Numbered from the stretch's first letter, positions 206-8,805 are shown. The stretch: 64,000 nt of DNA from Chlorobiaceae bacterium (GCA_013824245.1 PNNN01000065.1:1-64000); one strand, 5' to 3'. Notes: a model not told the origin generated them from the letters alone. Program-made: numbers and translations.

Positions 206-760
206 ATGAAGAAACTCATGTTCTTATTGGTTGCTGTGTTACTCGTTTCACTATCAGCAATGTCACAAGTTCAGGGCGTATATGATTATACAGTAACAGG
301 AGCCGGACTCGGTTTAGTGCTTGAAGGCGGAACTGTCGCTGCGGGTCCATTATACTCTGGCGTTTGCTACGAAATCGTCCCTGATCCACAGGGTATCACT
401 TTAGCAGGCGGAATCACCCCAATAACAAACGACGAATTAGCAGAAATTGCACCAGTTACATTAACCGGCGATGCATATGCTAACGTTATGGTAAGCTGTG
501 CGGTTCCAACATTATTGTTAAGTTCCGATGGTTTCGCGCCATTAGGTTTAACATACACTGCAACTTCAGGATTTGCTGATGTTTCTGGCGACGGTACAGT
601 GGGTTTATTCTTTAACCCAACAGCCGGAGCAATCGACATCAATCTTAATGCTGATGGAAATGCTTTCATATGGATCGGATTCAATGCATGCGCACCGAAA
701 TTCGGCGCCGCAGCAGCAGAATGGACCGGACAAGCAATGATCAGTGCACAATACAAATAA
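206..760 (+). CDS. Exported DUF4402-like protein, candidate pilus subunit
   Basis: A 184-residue exported protein. Residues 1-20 form a Sec signal peptide (MKK, a Leu/Val-rich core, then SAMSQ). The mature chain is rich in Gly, Ala and Thr and looks all-beta. Its last strand (WTGQAMISAQYK) resembles the closing strand of DUF4402 proteins. Three cysteines lie at residues 54, 98 and 162. The start is fixed by AAGGAG seven bases upstream. A strong terminator at 807-843 follows, and then come a PapD-like chaperone and an usher-like gene. From that order I infer a structural subunit of a chaperone-usher-type fibre. I cannot see a clear donor-strand motif by eye, so an unrelated exported beta protein remains possible. 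The family resemblance is moderate and the subunit role is inference. Confidence 0.6.
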   Translation: MKKLMFLLVAVLLVSLSAMSQVQGVYDYTVTGAGLGLVLEGGTVAAGPLYSGVCYEIVPDPQGITLAGGITPITNDELAEIAPVTLTGDAYANVMVSCAVPTLLLSSDGFAPLGLTYTATSGFADVSGDGTVGLFFNPTAGAIDINLNADGNAFIWIGFNACAPKFGAAAAEWTGQAMISAQYK

Positions 761-806
761 GGGTCTAGGTTAATATTCTAGATACATACTTGTATTAAAT
801 CGATTG

Positions 807-843
807 AAGGTAGCTTGTAGAAATATTACAAGCTACCTTTTTT
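807..843 (+). terminator. Intrinsic terminator after the subunit gene
   Basis: A perfect 13-bp stem (AAGGTAGCTTGTA at 807-819 pairing with 827-839) with a 7-base loop runs into a T-tract at 838-843. It sits between the subunit gene and the chaperone gene. Any shared transcript must therefore read through it, which would give more subunit than chaperone and usher mRNA. Confidence 0.9.
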
Positions 844-872
844 ATATAAAAACAATGTAGCTGATTCTCCAA

Positions 873-1721
873 GTGTCTAAAACGATGATAAAATACCGAA
901 CAATAATAATCCTTTCTGTAATAATATTTTCGATATGTTTTTTCCAAATAGGTTTTGCCGGTATTTCGGTAATACCAAAACATGTTTTCATGGATGATTT
1001 GCGCAAAACTGCTCCAATAACCGTGAGGAATATGGATAACAGCGAGGTTGAGGTTCATATCAAAATTATTTTTGGTTACGTTACCACCGATGATACCGGG
1101 AAATCAATTATCGTAATGGATTCAATTTCAGTCGATTCAAATTCTTCAGCCAGGTGGATTCGTCCTTATCCGGTCCGTTTTGTTTTAGGCGGAGGAGAAT
1201 CGCAAACTGTAAGGTTAGTAGCAACACCATCGCCCGGACTTGCAGATGGAGAATACTGGTGCAGAGTATTGATTACATCATATCCGCGTGGAATAACTAC
1301 ATCGAGCAAAAAAACATCAACTAAGGGTGCAATGACATTCGCATACGAAATTGGACTTCCAATTTATTTTCGACATGGAAAAATTAGTACTGGCTTAGAT
1401 CAACATGATTTTTCTTTGAAAAAAATAGACAATGAATTAGAAGTTCACCTAGATCTGGAAAGAACCGGCAATGCATCTTTTAACGGATCACAGATGATAA
1501 GAATTAGAAATAAAGAAGGCGAGGTAGTTCGGACTGTCGAATCTGAAAATCTTGTTGTGTTTAACAAGTATAAACTGAAAGAAAAAGTGAAGGTAAGCGA
1601 TTTGCCTGCCGGTATGTATAATATTGAATTAGAGATTTTATCAAAACGTAAAGATATCAGCGCAAAATATTTATTGTCATCTCCCCCGCTAAGATTATCG
1701 GGGAAAATTGAGTTACCATAA
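873..1721 (+). CDS. PapD-like periplasmic chaperone
   Basis: A protein of about 280 residues with an N-terminal hydrophobic export segment (roughly residues 9-29). It is followed by an immunoglobulin-like domain that reads like the N-terminal domain of pilus chaperones. The stretch RPYPVRFVLGGGESQTVRL matches the conserved P-x-R-x-x-L-x-x-G-x-x-Q-x-V-R-L strand, and DGEYWCRVLI follows where PapD-type proteins carry their G1-strand region. The second half has a further beta domain. Such chaperones cap pilin subunits in the periplasm and deliver them to an outer-membrane usher. The start is GTG at 873 or ATG at 885, and neither has a clear ribosome-binding site. The usher-like gene follows within 15 bases. 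The assignment rests on motif pattern and gene order. A stand-alone Ig-like exported protein is the alternative. Confidence 0.7.
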   Translation: MSKTMIKYRTIIILSVIIFSICFFQIGFAGISVIPKHVFMDDLRKTAPITVRNMDNSEVEVHIKIIFGYVTTDDTGKSIIVMDSISVDSNSSARWIRPYPVRFVLGGGESQTVRLVATPSPGLADGEYWCRVLITSYPRGITTSSKKTSTKGAMTFAYEIGLPIYFRHGKISTGLDQHDFSLKKIDNELEVHLDLERTGNASFNGSQMIRIRNKEGEVVRTVESENLVVFNKYKLKEKVKVSDLPAGMYNIELEILSKRKDISAKYLLSSPPLRLSGKIELP

Positions 1722-1734
1722 AATAGGGTGGAGT

Positions 1735-4287
1735 GTGAAAAAGGGAATTCACATAGCGTTATTATTAATTTTCGTAATATCGCATCTCATCGGTCAAGCT
1801 ACTCAAGAAGAGCGCATACCGATTGAATTGCGTGTTACCGGTATTGGATCGATACCTCTTGAAGTTATCGCTCTTGATACAATTATTTATTTCAATTCAA
1901 AAACTATTTTTGATTTTCTCGGTATATATAATACTTACTTCTCCGAAAGGCAAACTATTGAAGGCTTTTACAAAAATAAAAGGACCCCTTACGTAATAGA
2001 TTGCTCTGTACCCGAAGCAAGGATGAAGAAAATATCGGTGCCATTAACATCAGACGATTTTCTGATAAGGGACATGGAGGTATATCTTAATAAAGATTTT
2101 ATCAATAAATTTTTTAAATTAGATTTGCGATATAATAAAAGACGACTGCTCGTCGAAATGCCGAGAGTAGGAGATCTTCCGAGGGTGAAATATATTGAGC
2201 AACTACGACGGCGTGAACATTTAGCCGAAAGCGCAATAAATCTTCCGCCACCCGAAATGACAATCGACAGATCGTTCTACATTATTGATGGAGGACGGCT
2301 TACATATAATTTTTATAACAGGTTTACTAAATCCACCTCTCCCCACAGGAATTATAATTTTAATTATGGTGGAGGTATTTTAGGTGGCGATATAAACTTA
2401 CGTTATTATGGTACCCAGAGAAAATTTCGTTCTTTTGATCAATTTCGGGCGAAATGGAGATATCCGATTTTTAACCAACCATATTTACGTCAAATCATAG
2501 TCGGTGATTTGGTTTCCTCGGGTTTTTTAGCTAGTCTCGTCCGAGGTTTCGGAATTACAAATAAGCCCTTGCAACAAAGATATTTTTTTGGTAACGAAGA
2601 TGTTGAAGGTGTATTTTCACCTAATATTGATGTAGAATTGAAAAGCACCCAAAGTGATTATCAATTTTCTAGAACCGATTCAAGTGGTAAATATTATTTT
2701 AGTTTGCCAATATATTATGGCCAAGGAAGATCCACTATCCAGACGCTTGATCCGTGGGGTTTTCAGGAGATGGAACAATTCCGTTCTAATCTGCCTGTTT
2801 CCATGGTGCCACCCGGAACTGTGGAGTATTCAGTCATAGCCGGTAAAGCTCGATATGGATTAAAACGTTATACTTCGACTGCAAATTTACAATGGGGAGT
2901 AACCTCAAATCTGACTATAGGTTCAACTCTATCTTATTTTGATCAACCGAAAATGAGGTCAAAAATTTATCCTACTATTAATTCTATTGTTCGCATTAAC
3001 TCGGGTATGTCATTCGATTTGCAAGTCACGCCATTAGCTTATTCCAGCGCGAAATTACAGTGTTTGCTTCCCTCCGATGTTGAAATAAAAGCTAATGCAA
3101 TTTATTATGCAGAAAATATTTATTTCAATCCAGCACGGTTGAAAAATAAATACGACATTTTAACAAACATACCATTTTCAGCGTGGGGTGGTTTCAGTGT
3201 AAATCTCGTTCAAGCGAGTTTACATACCTATCGTTATAGAAACGCTGATTTATCATTTTATTTAACATCGCGTTTTATATCTACCAGATTTTTATCACGT
3301 TGGTCTTGGCGCGTAAATGGGGAGAAAAATATTTTATTAACACGCCAATCATATTTTGACATATCATTAAATCTTCCATTGGGTGTATTTATAATGGGCG
3401 AAGCGTCGTATAATCATGTGCGAAAAGAGTTGGAGATTGTAGGTGTATCAATCAATAAAATATTGTTCAATTCGTTGCACATAGGATTTTCTCATAATCG
3501 ATTACCGATATTCGGATATAACATAACTTCCTTGCGTCTCGAATATGTTTTTCCTTTTGTACGTGCTATAGCCGGTGCTTCTCAGAATGGTCCTCATATG
3601 AGAGAATATTTTGCGGGTGCTACCGGTACGGTTAATTTTTCTATCCGTCCATTTTTTATGCTGCCCGAAAACAGGATGACTAATTTGGGATTTGGCGGAT
3701 TGAAAATAAATCCATTCTTTGATACTAACTCTAATGGTGTTCTTGATGACGATGAAGTGGAAACCAAAGAGGGAAAAGTGTTGTTTAGCAATGTATCAAG
3801 AAGTTCTAAAGTAGCCGCGATTCCAGTTACATCGAATAGATTAATGAGACTACCATCATACGAAGAATATGATATATCGCTCGATCCACAGTCGCTTGAG
3901 AACCCGATGTGGACCCCAACCACCGGAGTAGTTCGAGTATCGGCAGAGCCCGATCGAATCAAAGAAATTAATATTCCGCTGGTTATAGGCGGAACGATAC
4001 GCGGGATGATCAAAGTTCAAGGGACACAAATGCCGGCAGAAGGAATAAAAGTTATACTTCGTGCAAAAAGAAATAGTAACGGGAAAAAATATACAACCAC
4101 ATCGTTCTCGACGGGAGAATATGAATTCTCAACTATACCGCCCGGTAAGTACCGGCTCGAATTGGAAGATGTACAATTAACACAGTTAGGTTATAAATTT
4201 CAACCTCTCGGTTTTGATGTAGAAGTTCGAACTTCGGAAGAGGGCGATTTAATTAGTGAAAAAGATTTTACGCTGTTGCCTAAATGA
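1735..4287 (+). CDS. Usher-like outer-membrane protein
   Basis: An outer-membrane protein of about 850 residues. After a signal peptide (KKGIHIALLLIFVISHLIGQ) comes an N-terminal periplasmic region to about residue 190, then a Tyr/Phe-rich beta-barrel region. The barrel is interrupted by a stretch reading GVFSPNIDVELKSTQSDY...YYFSLPI...VPPGTVEYSVIAGKARYG. This parallels the usher plug pattern, in which a fibre-like segment is followed by V-P-x-G-x-x-x-Y-x-x-x-x-G-x-x-R-Y. A DTNSNGVLDDDE loop (calcium-like) and a Cna-B/carboxypeptidase-regulatory-like beta domain form the C-terminus. I prefer the GTG start at 1735, with AGGG upstream. A TTG at 1708 would overlap the chaperone gene by 14 bases. 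Ushers secrete and assemble chaperone-bound pilins. The sequence is divergent and the call leans on the neighbouring chaperone. Confidence 0.6.
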   Translation: MKKGIHIALLLIFVISHLIGQATQEERIPIELRVTGIGSIPLEVIALDTIIYFNSKTIFDFLGIYNTYFSERQTIEGFYKNKRTPYVIDCSVPEARMKKISVPLTSDDFLIRDMEVYLNKDFINKFFKLDLRYNKRRLLVEMPRVGDLPRVKYIEQLRRREHLAESAINLPPPEMTIDRSFYIIDGGRLTYNFYNRFTKSTSPHRNYNFNYGGGILGGDINLRYYGTQRKFRSFDQFRAKWRYPIFNQPYLRQIIVGDLVSSGFLASLVRGFGITNKPLQQRYFFGNEDVEGVFSPNIDVELKSTQSDYQFSRTDSSGKYYFSLPIYYGQGRSTIQTLDPWGFQEMEQFRSNLPVSMVPPGTVEYSVIAGKARYGLKRYTSTANLQWGVTSNLTIGSTLSYFDQPKMRSKIYPTINSIVRINSGMSFDLQVTPLAYSSAKLQCLLPSDVEIKANAIYYAENIYFNPARLKNKYDILTNIPFSAWGGFSVNLVQASLHTYRYRNADLSFYLTSRFISTRFLSRWSWRVNGEKNILLTRQSYFDISLNLPLGVFIMGEASYNHVRKELEIVGVSINKILFNSLHIGFSHNRLPIFGYNITSLRLEYVFPFVRAIAGASQNGPHMREYFAGATGTVNFSIRPFFMLPENRMTNLGFGGLKINPFFDTNSNGVLDDDEVETKEGKVLFSNVSRSSKVAAIPVTSNRLMRLPSYEEYDISLDPQSLENPMWTPTTGVVRVSAEPDRIKEINIPLVIGGTIRGMIKVQGTQMPAEGIKVILRAKRNSNGKKYTTTSFSTGEYEFSTIPPGKYRLELEDVQLTQLGYKFQPLGFDVEVRTSEEGDLISEKDFTLLPK

Positions 4288-4333
4288 TGACTATAGGGAG
4301 AATGATGTATTGTGATGAAGGAGTATGATAATT

Positions 4334-6541
4334 ATGTGTAACTTATTTAGAATATTAGGATTATTTTTAATTTACTCACTTTTTCTTGCTTCATTTGCTT
4401 TTGCGCAGGAAGAAGATGATTCGTTGTCCACCGCAGATTTTAATTTTCTTGCAAATCCGGATAATGATGCAGAAGAGCTTTTAAGTATAGATGAAATAAA
4501 TGCAGGATTAAACTGGCACTGGATGAATCCGTACCCCCAAGGGAATTCGCTCTACAGTGTCGACATATATCGCGATACTGGAATGTGTGCGGTTGGGGAT
4601 ATCGAAAATTTTATCCTCACTACCGATCGGGGAGCATCGTGGTTAAATAAACCTTCAGCCGGTTACGGAACCAGACGCTTCATGGTCGTTGATGCAGTGA
4701 ATGAGAAATATATTTATGCGGCGGGGACACAGGGGCTTGTTGTTCGCTCGACTGATGGTGGAAATAATTGGACTGTTCTACCTTTTGGCACATCTATGCC
4801 CATACATGCAATGAAATTTGTTGATACACTTGCCGGCTGGATAGCCGGTTTTAACGGTATTATTGCCAAAACAACAGACGGTGGAACAACGTGGATCCAT
4901 CAAAATTTATTCAGTTATATTCGCGTTAGAGGGATTGAATTTATCGACACACAGCGCGGATGGGTTGTTGGCGATTCGGGGAGAGTATTTTCGACTACGA
5001 ACGGGGGGACAACTTGGACATCGCAAAACTCTGGTGTTAATAAAGCATTAACTTCGGTTCGTTTCGTGAATGCAGATACGGGCTGGATAGCAGGAGATGG
5101 CGGTGTAATTAGGAGAACCACAAATGGTGGTATTTCTTGGTTATTGCAGGGCGTACCGGTTGTTACATATCAAGCAATTGATTTTACGGACGGACAATAT
5201 GGATGGGCTGTGGGGCAAAACGGGACGATAATAAAAACAACAAATGGCGGACTTGCCTGGACAACATCTACTACAGCAGTAACAAATTGGTTGACAGGAG
5301 TGAAATTCGCTAATCGTTCACTTGGATGGGCTATCGGTTATGGCGGTGTAATACTCCAATCAAATGATGGAGGATCTTCCTGGTCCCAATTGAATAGAGG
5401 CGAGAGCGGATACTTTCGTGGTGTACATTTTGTAACATCTGAGATTGGATGGGCTGTTGGCGATTTGGGTATAATAACGAAAACTACCAACGCCGGCTTA
5501 AACTGGACCCGACAAAATTCAGGAATGCTTCTGAGATTTAATGCAGTATATTTTGTAAATCAATTGATCGGGTGGGCGGTTGGGAAATCAGGCGTTGTCG
5601 TTCATACAACAGATGGTGGTTCAACCTGGATCGAACAAAGCACCCCGACGTTAAGTACTTTATATGGAGTGCACTTCTACGATTCTCAGAATGGAGTTGC
5701 AGTTGGTACGCGCGGGAAAATCCTTCGTACAACGAATGGCGGCTCAACATGGATATCGAAAAATGCAAATACATCAATTCAGCTAAATAGCGTTAAGATG
5801 GTAACGGATTTGTCCGTATGGGCATGTGGAAGGAATGGACTTCTTGTTCGATCATACGATGGTGGAAATGGCTGGGTACCACAAGAGATTCGGTCTCAAC
5901 GTAACAATCTTAGCAGTATTGATTTTATATCGGCAGATCGCGGAATAGCAGTCGGGAATCGGGGAACAATAGTTCTCACCACAAACGGCGGATCGAGTTG
6001 GAGTACGATGACTTCAGGTACCAAGCGTAATTTATTGGGAGTCAAATTTGTTAACGCTAATCAGGTGTGGGCTGTTGGTGATTACGGCACATTGCTTCAC
6101 TCGGTTGATGGGGGCGGCAGTTGGAGCCGTGTTGGTAGCGGCACATCAAATGTTTTGACCGGATTATCGTTTATTGATTCAACACGAGGATGGGTCGTTG
6201 GACGGAATTCTACAATTCTCCGTTACGATTCAGGTGGTGGCTATACACCTCCACGAATTATTCCTCAACCTTTAATTGCCGAATTGGGAAATTACCCTAA
6301 CCCGTTCAATCCCCGGACAAAAATTTCATTCAAAGTTCTTGAATCATCTGCACTAACAATCCGACTATTCAATATCAACGGTGAAGAAATATCTCGATTG
6401 GCAGACCATCGGGAATATGAAATTGGTAACCACAACATCGATTTCGATTTTTCTAATTATTCAACTGGCGTTTATTTTGTTCAAATATTGTCAGAGCGAA
6501 ATAAATATCAGATAACCCGAAAATTACTTTATATCAAATAG
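4334..6541 (+). CDS. Ycf48-like beta-propeller protein with T9SS tail
   Basis: A secreted protein of about 735 residues. A signal peptide (LFRILGLFLIYSLFLASFAFAQ) precedes a long array of roughly 45-residue repeats with the pattern GWAVG...G-x-I-x-x-TTNGG-x-x-W, typical of Ycf48/Hcf136-like and BNR propellers. The last 95 residues are a T9SS type A-like sorting domain (NYPNPFNP, then STGVYFVQIL and KLLYIK), so export across the outer membrane and surface attachment are expected. AAGGAG at 4318-4323 is ten bases from ATG 4334 but only one from ATG 4325, so I favour 4334. It starts 46 bases after the usher gene and is followed 26 bases on by a paralogous gene, so co-transcription is plausible. 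The ligand is unknown. Confidence 0.85.
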   Translation: MCNLFRILGLFLIYSLFLASFAFAQEEDDSLSTADFNFLANPDNDAEELLSIDEINAGLNWHWMNPYPQGNSLYSVDIYRDTGMCAVGDIENFILTTDRGASWLNKPSAGYGTRRFMVVDAVNEKYIYAAGTQGLVVRSTDGGNNWTVLPFGTSMPIHAMKFVDTLAGWIAGFNGIIAKTTDGGTTWIHQNLFSYIRVRGIEFIDTQRGWVVGDSGRVFSTTNGGTTWTSQNSGVNKALTSVRFVNADTGWIAGDGGVIRRTTNGGISWLLQGVPVVTYQAIDFTDGQYGWAVGQNGTIIKTTNGGLAWTTSTTAVTNWLTGVKFANRSLGWAIGYGGVILQSNDGGSSWSQLNRGESGYFRGVHFVTSEIGWAVGDLGIITKTTNAGLNWTRQNSGMLLRFNAVYFVNQLIGWAVGKSGVVVHTTDGGSTWIEQSTPTLSTLYGVHFYDSQNGVAVGTRGKILRTTNGGSTWISKNANTSIQLNSVKMVTDLSVWACGRNGLLVRSYDGGNGWVPQEIRSQRNNLSSIDFISADRGIAVGNRGTIVLTTNGGSSWSTMTSGTKRNLLGVKFVNANQVWAVGDYGTLLHSVDGGGSWSRVGSGTSNVLTGLSFIDSTRGWVVGRNSTILRYDSGGGYTPPRIIPQPLIAELGNYPNPFNPRTKISFKVLESSALTIRLFNINGEEISRLADHREYEIGNHNIDFDFSNYSTGVYFVQILSERNKYQITRKLLYIK

Positions 6542-6567: not shown

Positions 6568-8805
6568 ATGTCTAACAAAATCAAACATACAAGACGAGGC
6601 ATGATTTCCTACCAAGTATTATTCTTTCTATTAGTGATTTCATTGTTCATGATCTCCACTAATCTCTCAAGTCAAATTATCGATTCATCCGGCTGGTTCT
6701 GGCAAAATCCCCTTCCCCAAGGGAACGATCTTTATGGGATAACAACCGTTGACGCTCAACATGTTTATGCAGTCGGAGATGCAGGAATGCTGTTAAATAG
6801 CACTGATGGTGGTGTTTCTTGGTCGATACAAGGTAACATCGAAGATATTCGAACGTCATTACGATCGATAAAATTCCCAATTCAAACTAATGGTTGGATA
6901 GTGGGAGAACAGGGTAGGATACTGAATACAACCAATAGCGGTGAAAGCTGGAGAGTTCGTTATGTGGGGACATCGAATATTCTCAAAGATGTTTTTTTTC
7001 TGGATAGAAATCTTGGCTGGGTAGCAGGTCAAAACGGATATTTGATTCGCACAACGAACAGCGGTTCATCATGGGAACGGTTAGGACTTAATCTTACAAA
7101 CTCACTTAATTCTATTCAGTTTATTTCGCCTCAGGTTGGTTTTATAGCTGCAGATCAGCATACCTTGTATTCAACAAAGAACAACGGTAATGACTGGCAG
7201 TCAACCGATACTTTAGTCTCACCACGCGATTTTGTCAGTCTCAAATTTATTAATTCTTCAAATGGATGGATTCTATCTCGAGAATTTGGTGATATTTTTA
7301 TTACAACTGATGCAGGTTCAAACTGGACAAAAAAAACTACCGGTAGTGGAAATCTGAATGCCCTCGATTTTTTCTCTCAGCAAGTTGGAGTTGTCGTCGG
7401 TAATAATGGTCTATTATTAAGAAGCGTAACTGGTGGTGTTGTCTGGAACAAAACCGTTCTTGATAGTACTACGGACTTTATGAACGTATCTGTTTTACCG
7501 TCGCCAAACTCTGTCGGCTGGCTCGTTGGTACAAATGGACGAATTTGGAAAACAACGGACAGCGGAATTAATTGGGATAATTACTCAAGCGGCGATGTGA
7601 GCGATATGCGGGGGCTTGCTGTCCTTGATCAGAACCGAGCTTTTGCCTCATGTGCTAATGGCGTTATCATGTTCACAAGAAATGGCGGTACAAAGTGGGA
7701 TACTGTTCGTACAAATCACAATATCGTTTTAAACTCAATAGATTTTCTTGACGAGTTGACAGGCGTTGCTGTTGGCGATTCGGGTTTCATTTTGTACACC
7801 TTAGATCGTGGTTTGAATTGGACAAAACTTACGAACGTTGTTACAAGCCGCCTCCTAAAAATTAAATTATATTCCTCTCTCGTCGGCATCGCTGTTGGAG
7901 AAGAAGGAGTTATACTGCGTTCAACTAATGGCGGACTTGACTGGAACCTCATTCAGCTTCATCAAAATTATCGTATTGCTGATGTTCAGTTCGTAGATAA
8001 AGATACGATTATTGCAGTAGGCGATTCTTCCGGATTGGGAAGGATGTTCAAAAGTACAGACGCTGGCTTAACATGGGATATTCCACATGCTGAACCTTAT
8101 ATGGCATTATTATCGGTTCAATTTATTTCACCCAGAACAGGATTTGCCTCTGGCCGTAACGGAACAATTCTTACAACAACAGATTATGGCACAACATGGT
8201 ACCCTCGAAGAATTAGCGAATCTTCTTTAAAAGTAGATTTTCAATCAATCTTCTTCAGCGACGATAGTGTTGGATGGGTTGCGGGACGCAAAGGTACAGT
8301 ATTAAAAAGTATAAACGGAGGAAAAAATTGGTTCGCTCTTGCAAGCGGCACTAACCGCGATTTGTATGCGGCAAATTTTATTTCCGATAAAGTTGGGTGG
8401 ATTATTGGTGATCGCGGCACAATTTTAAAAACCATTGATGGAGGCGGTCGTATTTTAAATACAGATCCGATAGTTTCCAAAACTGCTAAGGAGATTAGAT
8501 TATTGCCTAATTTCCCTAATCCATACTACCCAATGAATCATCCAATGGGTACATATCTACCTTTCGAATTAGATGTATCCACATTTGTTACGCTAAAAAT
8601 TTACGACCTGCTTGGGCGGAAGATACAAGAAATTCCACTCGGTTATGTTTCCGCCGGAGTTTATGATAATTCACGCGGTAATCCGTTTGCTCCATCTTGG
8701 GATGGAAGAGATATGAATGGTATATCGGTCACAACCGGCGTCTACGTCTACGCTCTCTCAACTCCGCGGGCGCGGGATACAGGGAAATTACTCCTGATCA
8801 GATGA
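6568..8805 (+). CDS. Second Ycf48-like propeller protein with divergent T9SS tail
   Basis: A paralogue of the preceding gene, 745 residues, with the same mature N-terminus style (WFWQNPLPQGNDLYGI against WHWMNPYPQGNSLYSV). It has about a dozen GW-x-x-G...TT-x-x-G-x-x-W propeller repeats. A hydrophobic signal segment spans about residues 13-35. The C-terminal sorting domain is unusual: NPFNP is replaced by NPYYPMNHPMG, and an extended SWDGRDMNGISVTTGVYVYAL precedes the final KLLLIR. The start ATG has AAGGGGGGAG about 12 bases upstream. Transcription probably ends at the hairpins at 8835-8942. Tandem duplication followed by divergence explains the pair. The binding target is not evident. Confidence 0.85.
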   Translation: MSNKIKHTRRGMISYQVLFFLLVISLFMISTNLSSQIIDSSGWFWQNPLPQGNDLYGITTVDAQHVYAVGDAGMLLNSTDGGVSWSIQGNIEDIRTSLRSIKFPIQTNGWIVGEQGRILNTTNSGESWRVRYVGTSNILKDVFFLDRNLGWVAGQNGYLIRTTNSGSSWERLGLNLTNSLNSIQFISPQVGFIAADQHTLYSTKNNGNDWQSTDTLVSPRDFVSLKFINSSNGWILSREFGDIFITTDAGSNWTKKTTGSGNLNALDFFSQQVGVVVGNNGLLLRSVTGGVVWNKTVLDSTTDFMNVSVLPSPNSVGWLVGTNGRIWKTTDSGINWDNYSSGDVSDMRGLAVLDQNRAFASCANGVIMFTRNGGTKWDTVRTNHNIVLNSIDFLDELTGVAVGDSGFILYTLDRGLNWTKLTNVVTSRLLKIKLYSSLVGIAVGEEGVILRSTNGGLDWNLIQLHQNYRIADVQFVDKDTIIAVGDSSGLGRMFKSTDAGLTWDIPHAEPYMALLSVQFISPRTGFASGRNGTILTTTDYGTTWYPRRISESSLKVDFQSIFFSDDSVGWVAGRKGTVLKSINGGKNWFALASGTNRDLYAANFISDKVGWIIGDRGTILKTIDGGGRILNTDPIVSKTAKEIRLLPNFPNPYYPMNHPMGTYLPFELDVSTFVTLKIYDLLGRKIQEIPLGYVSAGVYDNSRGNPFAPSWDGRDMNGISVTTGVYVYALSTPRARDTGKLLLIR

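Follow-up and report, generated by a model that had tools for sequence, protein, structure and literature searches.

A probable DUF4402-pilin chaperone-usher fibre system in a Chlorobiaceae genome and its relatives across the phylum

The window, by which we mean the whole analysed stretch of 64,000 nucleotides, begins at the start of a contig (C5) in a genome of 3.23 Mb (G000), and the gene lying 5' of the locus described here is therefore truncated. Three open reading frames follow head to tail on the same (+) strand, at positions 206-760 (184 amino acids), 873-1721 (282 amino acids) and 1708-4287 (859 amino acids). The second opens with a GTG at 873 and likely starts at the ATG at 885; the third is open from a TTG at 1708, its likely start being the GTG at 1735. 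A preliminary description of this DNA had read the three, in this order, as an exported protein, an Ig-like protein and a barrel protein, and the order and the common strand are indeed as claimed. The gap between the first two genes contains an intrinsic-terminator-like hairpin (806-847, + strand), and two conserved neighbours lie downstream on the same strand, namely a YCF48-like beta-propeller protein with a T9SS sorting domain recognized by its Por_Secre_tail match (4325-6541) and a second YCF48-like protein (6568-8805). Near the contig end, 5' of the first gene, there is also an inverted repeat, ACCTTGCGAAGG...CCTTCGCAAGGT, at 21-67, of which the window has one copy; a promoter scan gave nothing above chance. 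It should be mentioned that single-sequence searches of Pfam, NCBIfam and the PDB with the three window proteins returned no chaperone, usher or pilin match above cut-off.

The largest protein (1735-4287) was analysed by profile, by AlphaFold2 modelling and by structural comparison in Foldseek and VIA, all of which pointed to an outer-membrane usher. The profile was built from 21 relatives, taken from a survey that covered 296 of the phylum's genomes, and was compared by hhalign with seven E. coli ushers (FimD, HtrE, EcpC, YbgQ, YehB, ElfC and YraJ), giving a probability of 99.3% and an E-value of 2.2e-20 over 625 columns, with the plug in register; controls in which the profile was reversed or its columns shuffled stayed at or below 0.6%. 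The AlphaFold2 model (pLDDT 86) has an N-terminal periplasmic domain (residues 27-145; positions 1810-2166) and a beta-barrel (residues 185-637; 2284-3642) with 24 strands as counted from the strand list. The usher-plug-like segment noticed earlier corresponds in the model to an inserted domain, residues 285-354 (about 2584-2793), that separates barrel strands 6 and 7 as in the FimD/PapC architecture. When this model was searched against the PDB with Foldseek, ranks 1-18 were all FimD/PapC chains (E 7e-27 to 5e-14), and the rank after this block stood at E 2e-8; in VIA, likewise, ushers had Z-scores of 20-24, and the barrel ranked after them had 16. The N-terminal domain gave no alignment with the FimD N-domain in these two structural comparisons. 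Overall, the family-level evidence is decisive in identifying the window barrel protein as an usher by fold and homology.

In none of the 296 genomes surveyed did the Pfam Usher model (PF00577) give a match above cut-off, and its three sub-cut-off matches all fell within this usher family. A scan of genome contigs with the window usher as query found nothing. The C-terminal region of the window usher carries a calcium-loop-like motif, DTNSNGVLDDDE, at 3721-3756, followed by a carboxypeptidase-regulatory-like domain (CarboxypepD_reg, PF13620) at 3994-4167. The latter family was matched by 19 of the 21 usher family members at E<=1, and the DxNxNGxxDxxE-like loop was present, by strict regular expression, in 13 of the 21 relatives and in none of the seven E. 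coli ushers. Other C-terminal additions vary, with SPOR matches in seven of the 21 members and TPR matches in six; such TPR or peptidoglycan-binding SPOR domains may tether the ushers of these relatives to the cell wall.

The middle gene (885-1721, + strand) would, by sequence comparison, encode a periplasmic pilus chaperone of the PapD superfamily with a non-classical, possibly archaic-like anchor signature. The pilus-chaperone strand that had been quoted for it is present as RPYPVRFVLGGGESQTVRL, and profile comparisons of its family, represented by 20 members in alignment A1, place it inside the superfamily, where the preliminary description had allowed that it might fall outside. In hhalign, the 20-member family matched the E. 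coli chaperones with a probability of 95.6% (controls at most 0.4%), and for the subfamily of the window chaperone the probability was 99.7% against a set of nine proteins, among them one from a Polaromonas plasmid that NCBI names 'fimbria/pilus periplasmic chaperone'. Ten of the 20 relatives also matched PapD_N at E<=1, the best at 2.5e-5. A search of the window's own genome with PapD_N (PF00345) gave no match, which is to be taken as a limit of the model and not as absence of a chaperone. One proline has been described as invariant across the whole chaperone superfamily (PMC4654587), and it is apparently invariant here too, being found in all 20 members. In the 20-member alignment there is no conservation of the columns for the basic anchor pair (Arg8/Lys112 type) of the classical FGS/FGL systems. 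Residues common among the relatives, namely one Arg of the F-strand region, the motif R-x-G and one Tyr (where the window chaperone has Phe), appear to resemble R89, R174 and Y196, the non-classical anchor residues of CsuC (PMC4654587). Judged from these comparisons, the window protein is a predicted two-domain PapD-type periplasmic chaperone. The plasmid-type chaperones, compared with the PDB, gave weak matches only, to PapD, WxLIP and FimC. Separately, genomes that lack this usher family were seen to contain PapD-like proteins of a remoter class, with E-values from about 1e-7 to 1e-18; one member of that class, L132:6671-7483, lies beside small exported proteins and a protein of 932 amino acids.

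The first gene (206-760, + strand) encodes a small protein with a signal peptide, its mature form beginning at about Gln21 (position 266) with a free N-terminal extension and ending in ...EWTGQAMISAQYK, with a penultimate Tyr. Its earlier designation as DUF4402-like holds for the family and not for the single sequence: Pfam DUF4402 did not match the window pilin itself, and yet 22 of the 31 small exported proteins found upstream of a chaperone, the window's own being included in the 31, matched it at E<=1 (best 2.4e-26). The window pilin aligns with these DUF4402-matching relatives (alignment A7), and closer homologues exist within its own family. SCPU (PF05229) was not among the families listed for the subunits at E<=1. 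The AlphaFold2 model of the pilin (pLDDT 91) leaves mature residues 1-17 unpaired and then forms a beta-sandwich. In Foldseek, 43 of the best 50 rows were chaperone-usher pilins by hand count, including CfaB, FimF/FimG, Caf1, SafA and CsuA/B, each match being individually weak (best E 0.012). The VIA Z-scores of 6-7.7 lie in the range of common folds; CsuE, CsuA/B and CfaE stood near the top at about 7, tied by an archaeal cannula fibre protein. With scores of this weak order, the predicted model would have the putatively incomplete Ig fold and the putative N-terminal donor extension of a pilin. A C-terminal aromatic residue was present in 21 of 30 pilins, and was combined with a Gly 12 residues earlier in 14 of the 30; in the window pilin the aromatic is Tyr and the Gly position is Ala. 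An orphan pilin-like gene, 30% identical, occurs elsewhere in the same genome (G000:C17:25265-25804; L114:7260-7817) with no chaperone or usher nearby.

The number of subunit genes differs between lineages: the window lineage has one pilin gene, and in many relatives a run of two to five subunit-like genes precedes that of the chaperone. Four loci (L040, L041, L033 and L046) carry subunit paralogs 5' of the chaperone, one of which has a conserved GPPPTP-like motif; in L033, L040 and L046 these sets stand behind a large Invasin-domain protein with a T9SS tail, and perhaps represent multi-subunit fibres.

The hairpin in the pilin-chaperone gap has 15 pairs and a T-rich tail, with a z-score of -3.8. 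A hairpin was found in the same gap of two near relatives (L031 and L115), and hairpins of unrelated sequence occupy this gap in six others (L033, L035, L040, L041, L046 and L050), each of these six being equalled in 0 of 200 mononucleotide shuffles, although the T tail of the L050 hairpin is weak. The gap is devoid of such a hairpin in several other relatives. In classical chaperone-usher operons, pilin excess is achieved through attenuation, and the hairpin described here is probably an attenuator that sets such an excess.

The same genes were then surveyed in related genomes. The usher family was found in 61 of the 296 genomes of the phylum, i.e., about a fifth, and the chaperone (E<=1e-20) in 50 of 197 genomes of the class. 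All 46 genomes with DUF4402, out of the 296, also carry the usher, a co-occurrence with a hypergeometric P of 3e-41 when relatedness is ignored. At 61 of 69 usher loci the chaperone gene lies directly upstream, within 2.5 kb and on the same strand, so that the arrangement is far beyond chance. Usher relatives are carried by Balneola, Gracilimonas, Aliifodinibius and Fodinibius, among others. Outside the phylum, plasmids of Polaromonas, Sphingopyxis and Novosphingobium have the same three-part module in the same order, their ushers being annotated merely as 'carboxypeptidase regulatory-like' or hypothetical, and similar loci were seen in Pseudoalteromonas and Deinococcus. The system is thus not peculiar to one lineage, as had been supposed, since it is spread over the phylum and occurs on proteobacterial plasmids as well.

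The presence of type IX cargo genes beside the locus, also pointed out earlier, is real, and the gene order is conserved in relatives. The order of a T9SS protein of about 650 amino acids, the pilin, chaperone and usher, and two YCF48 proteins recurs in L031, L116, L117, L120, L124, L125 and L128, as scored in the window's family and one sister family; in L118 the downstream YCF48 pair is not adjacent. The T9SS tails were checked by Pfam in four of the upstream proteins. In more distant lineages (L033, L040 and L046) the upstream position is taken by an Invasin_D3 protein that carries a T9SS tail. The window's own genome has a rich type IX cargo set, with 125 Por_Secre_tail proteins in 3.23 Mb, which weakens any significance of nearby T9SS genes per se; because such tails are so common, only the conserved order is informative, and not proximity.

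Taken as a whole, the three genes very probably constitute a complete minimal chaperone-usher fibre system of a DUF4402-pilin class. The divergent chaperone-usher system originally proposed for this locus is supported by the fold and homology of the usher, the profile-level homology of the chaperone, the pilin-like fold of the subunit and the conserved linkage of the genes, all of them computational observations. Of the two results that the preliminary description had named as fatal to its reading, a non-usher family for the barrel protein and a place outside the pilus-chaperone superfamily for the 873 protein, neither was obtained. By analogy with known systems, the pilin would pass the inner membrane via Sec, and the Ig-like chaperone would bind its incomplete Ig fold in the periplasm, lending it a strand, before handing it to the usher. 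The 24-stranded usher with its plug would then export and polymerise the pilins by donor-strand exchange, in which the N-terminal extension of the next pilin replaces the chaperone strand, and the extruded product would be an adhesive fibre on the cell. The hairpin probably stops most transcripts between the pilin and chaperone genes, and pilin would therefore be made in excess over chaperone and usher.

Other readings of the same genes have to be weighed against this one. The least probable, and an extremely improbable one, is that the barrel belongs to some other kind of outer-membrane protein, such as a porin, a TonB receptor or an LptD-type protein, and merely has an Ig-like protein as its neighbour. 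It could appeal to the fact that the window protein is above the Pfam cut-off only for its C-terminal CarboxypepD_reg and SdrD_B domains; however, the protein groups with ushers by profile, Foldseek, VIA and strand count, the two structural comparisons setting ushers clearly apart from other barrels, and the profile match is long and has clean controls. The plug is also at the usher position, and a chaperone gene adjoins, so that a non-usher identity is refuted as far as fold and homology are concerned. Very improbable too, if slightly less so, is that the 873 protein is a surface protein resembling WxL-interacting proteins instead of a pilus chaperone. The best PDB match of the chaperone family profile is indeed an Enterococcus WxLIP (E 0.009), and three of the 20 members weakly match WxLIP_PGBD; nonetheless, more members match PapD_N, the superfamily proline is kept, homologs are annotated as pilus chaperones, and the gene stands just before the usher at those 61 of 69 loci. 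The WxLIP matches may reflect common Ig-like ancestry.

A more substantial rival, which we still regard as improbable, accepts the usher-like barrel and the PapD-like protein and takes them for a secretion route that releases the DUF4402 protein, or loads it onto T9SS surface proteins, and forms no polymer. The window lineage has a single pilin gene and its trio is without an obvious adhesin subunit, and T9SS cargo genes are conserved on either side. However, the one-gene layout equally suits a homopolymeric fibre such as F1. Moreover, donor-strand polymers need a free N-terminal extension, and the pilin has retained one; subunit-like genes are multiplied before the chaperone in many relatives, and the recurrent hairpin would favour an excess of pilin.

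Compared with known fibre systems, the DUF4402 locus shares with the archaic (sigma) chaperone-usher systems, such as Csu of Acinetobacter and CupE of Pseudomonas, the subunit-chaperone-usher logic, a chaperone family without the classical basic anchor pair, and a pilin whose model aligns with CsuA/B and CsuE. It differs from them in having DUF4402 and not SCPU pilins, in the usher C-terminus with its calcium-loop-like motif and CarboxypepD_reg domain (TPR or SPOR in some members), in an usher that falls below the PF00577 cut-off, and in a chaperone that, for the majority of the Bacteroidota members sampled, reads YWxR and not EYR. With the classical systems (FimC/FimD, PapD/PapC) it has in common the usher architecture (a barrel of 24 strands, a plug separating the sixth from the seventh, and beta-domains at the C-terminus) and the pilin fold with a free N-terminal extension, whereas identity to type 1 and P pili is about 12-15%, the subunit family is different, and the Arg8-like anchor position is not conserved. 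The DUF4402/chaperone/'carboxypeptidase regulatory-like' clusters on the Polaromonas, Sphingopyxis and Novosphingobium plasmids represent the same module in the same order but, unlike the window lineage, are without T9SS neighbours in their annotated stretches. The fibre usually cited for Bacteroidota, the Type V (FimA/Mfa1) pilus of Bacteroidales, is also donor-strand based, and uses lipoprotein precursors and proteases with no usher and no PapD-type chaperone, in contrast to the usher and chaperone present here. In the features compared, the system is a chaperone-usher system at the level of the superfamily; it is not a classical one, by anchor residues and Pfam model, and it has no SCPU subunits.

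The literature that was searched, which did not extend to subscription journals, contained no mention of DUF4402, and its titles and abstracts contained no description of chaperone-usher fibres of this class in Bacteroidota, so that the DUF4402-pilin class is apparently undescribed there. To our knowledge DUF4402 is a family without known function, and it would now gain a specific role, that of a pilin. The finding would add chaperone-usher fibres to a phylum for which pili of other kinds are usually cited, where the Pfam Usher model reports none above cut-off although about a fifth of the genomes (61 of 296) carry a system of this type, and it offers Gracilimonas and Fodinibius as cultured relatives that possess it, G. 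mengyeensis DSM 21985 and F. halophilus being non-pathogenic examples. A further reading, which we put forward tentatively and consider rather unlikely, is that the fibre and the type IX secretion cargo are one co-conserved surface apparatus, in which two outer-membrane export machines would serve one organelle. Proteins delivered by T9SS could then possibly be a partner, an anchor or an adhesin of the DUF4402 fibre, the candidates being the upstream protein of about 650 amino acids and the two downstream YCF48-like propellers, and elsewhere the upstream Invasin-domain proteins. We know of no cooperation between chaperone-usher and type IX secretion; if it is functional, the conserved link to T9SS cargo would join the two export systems.
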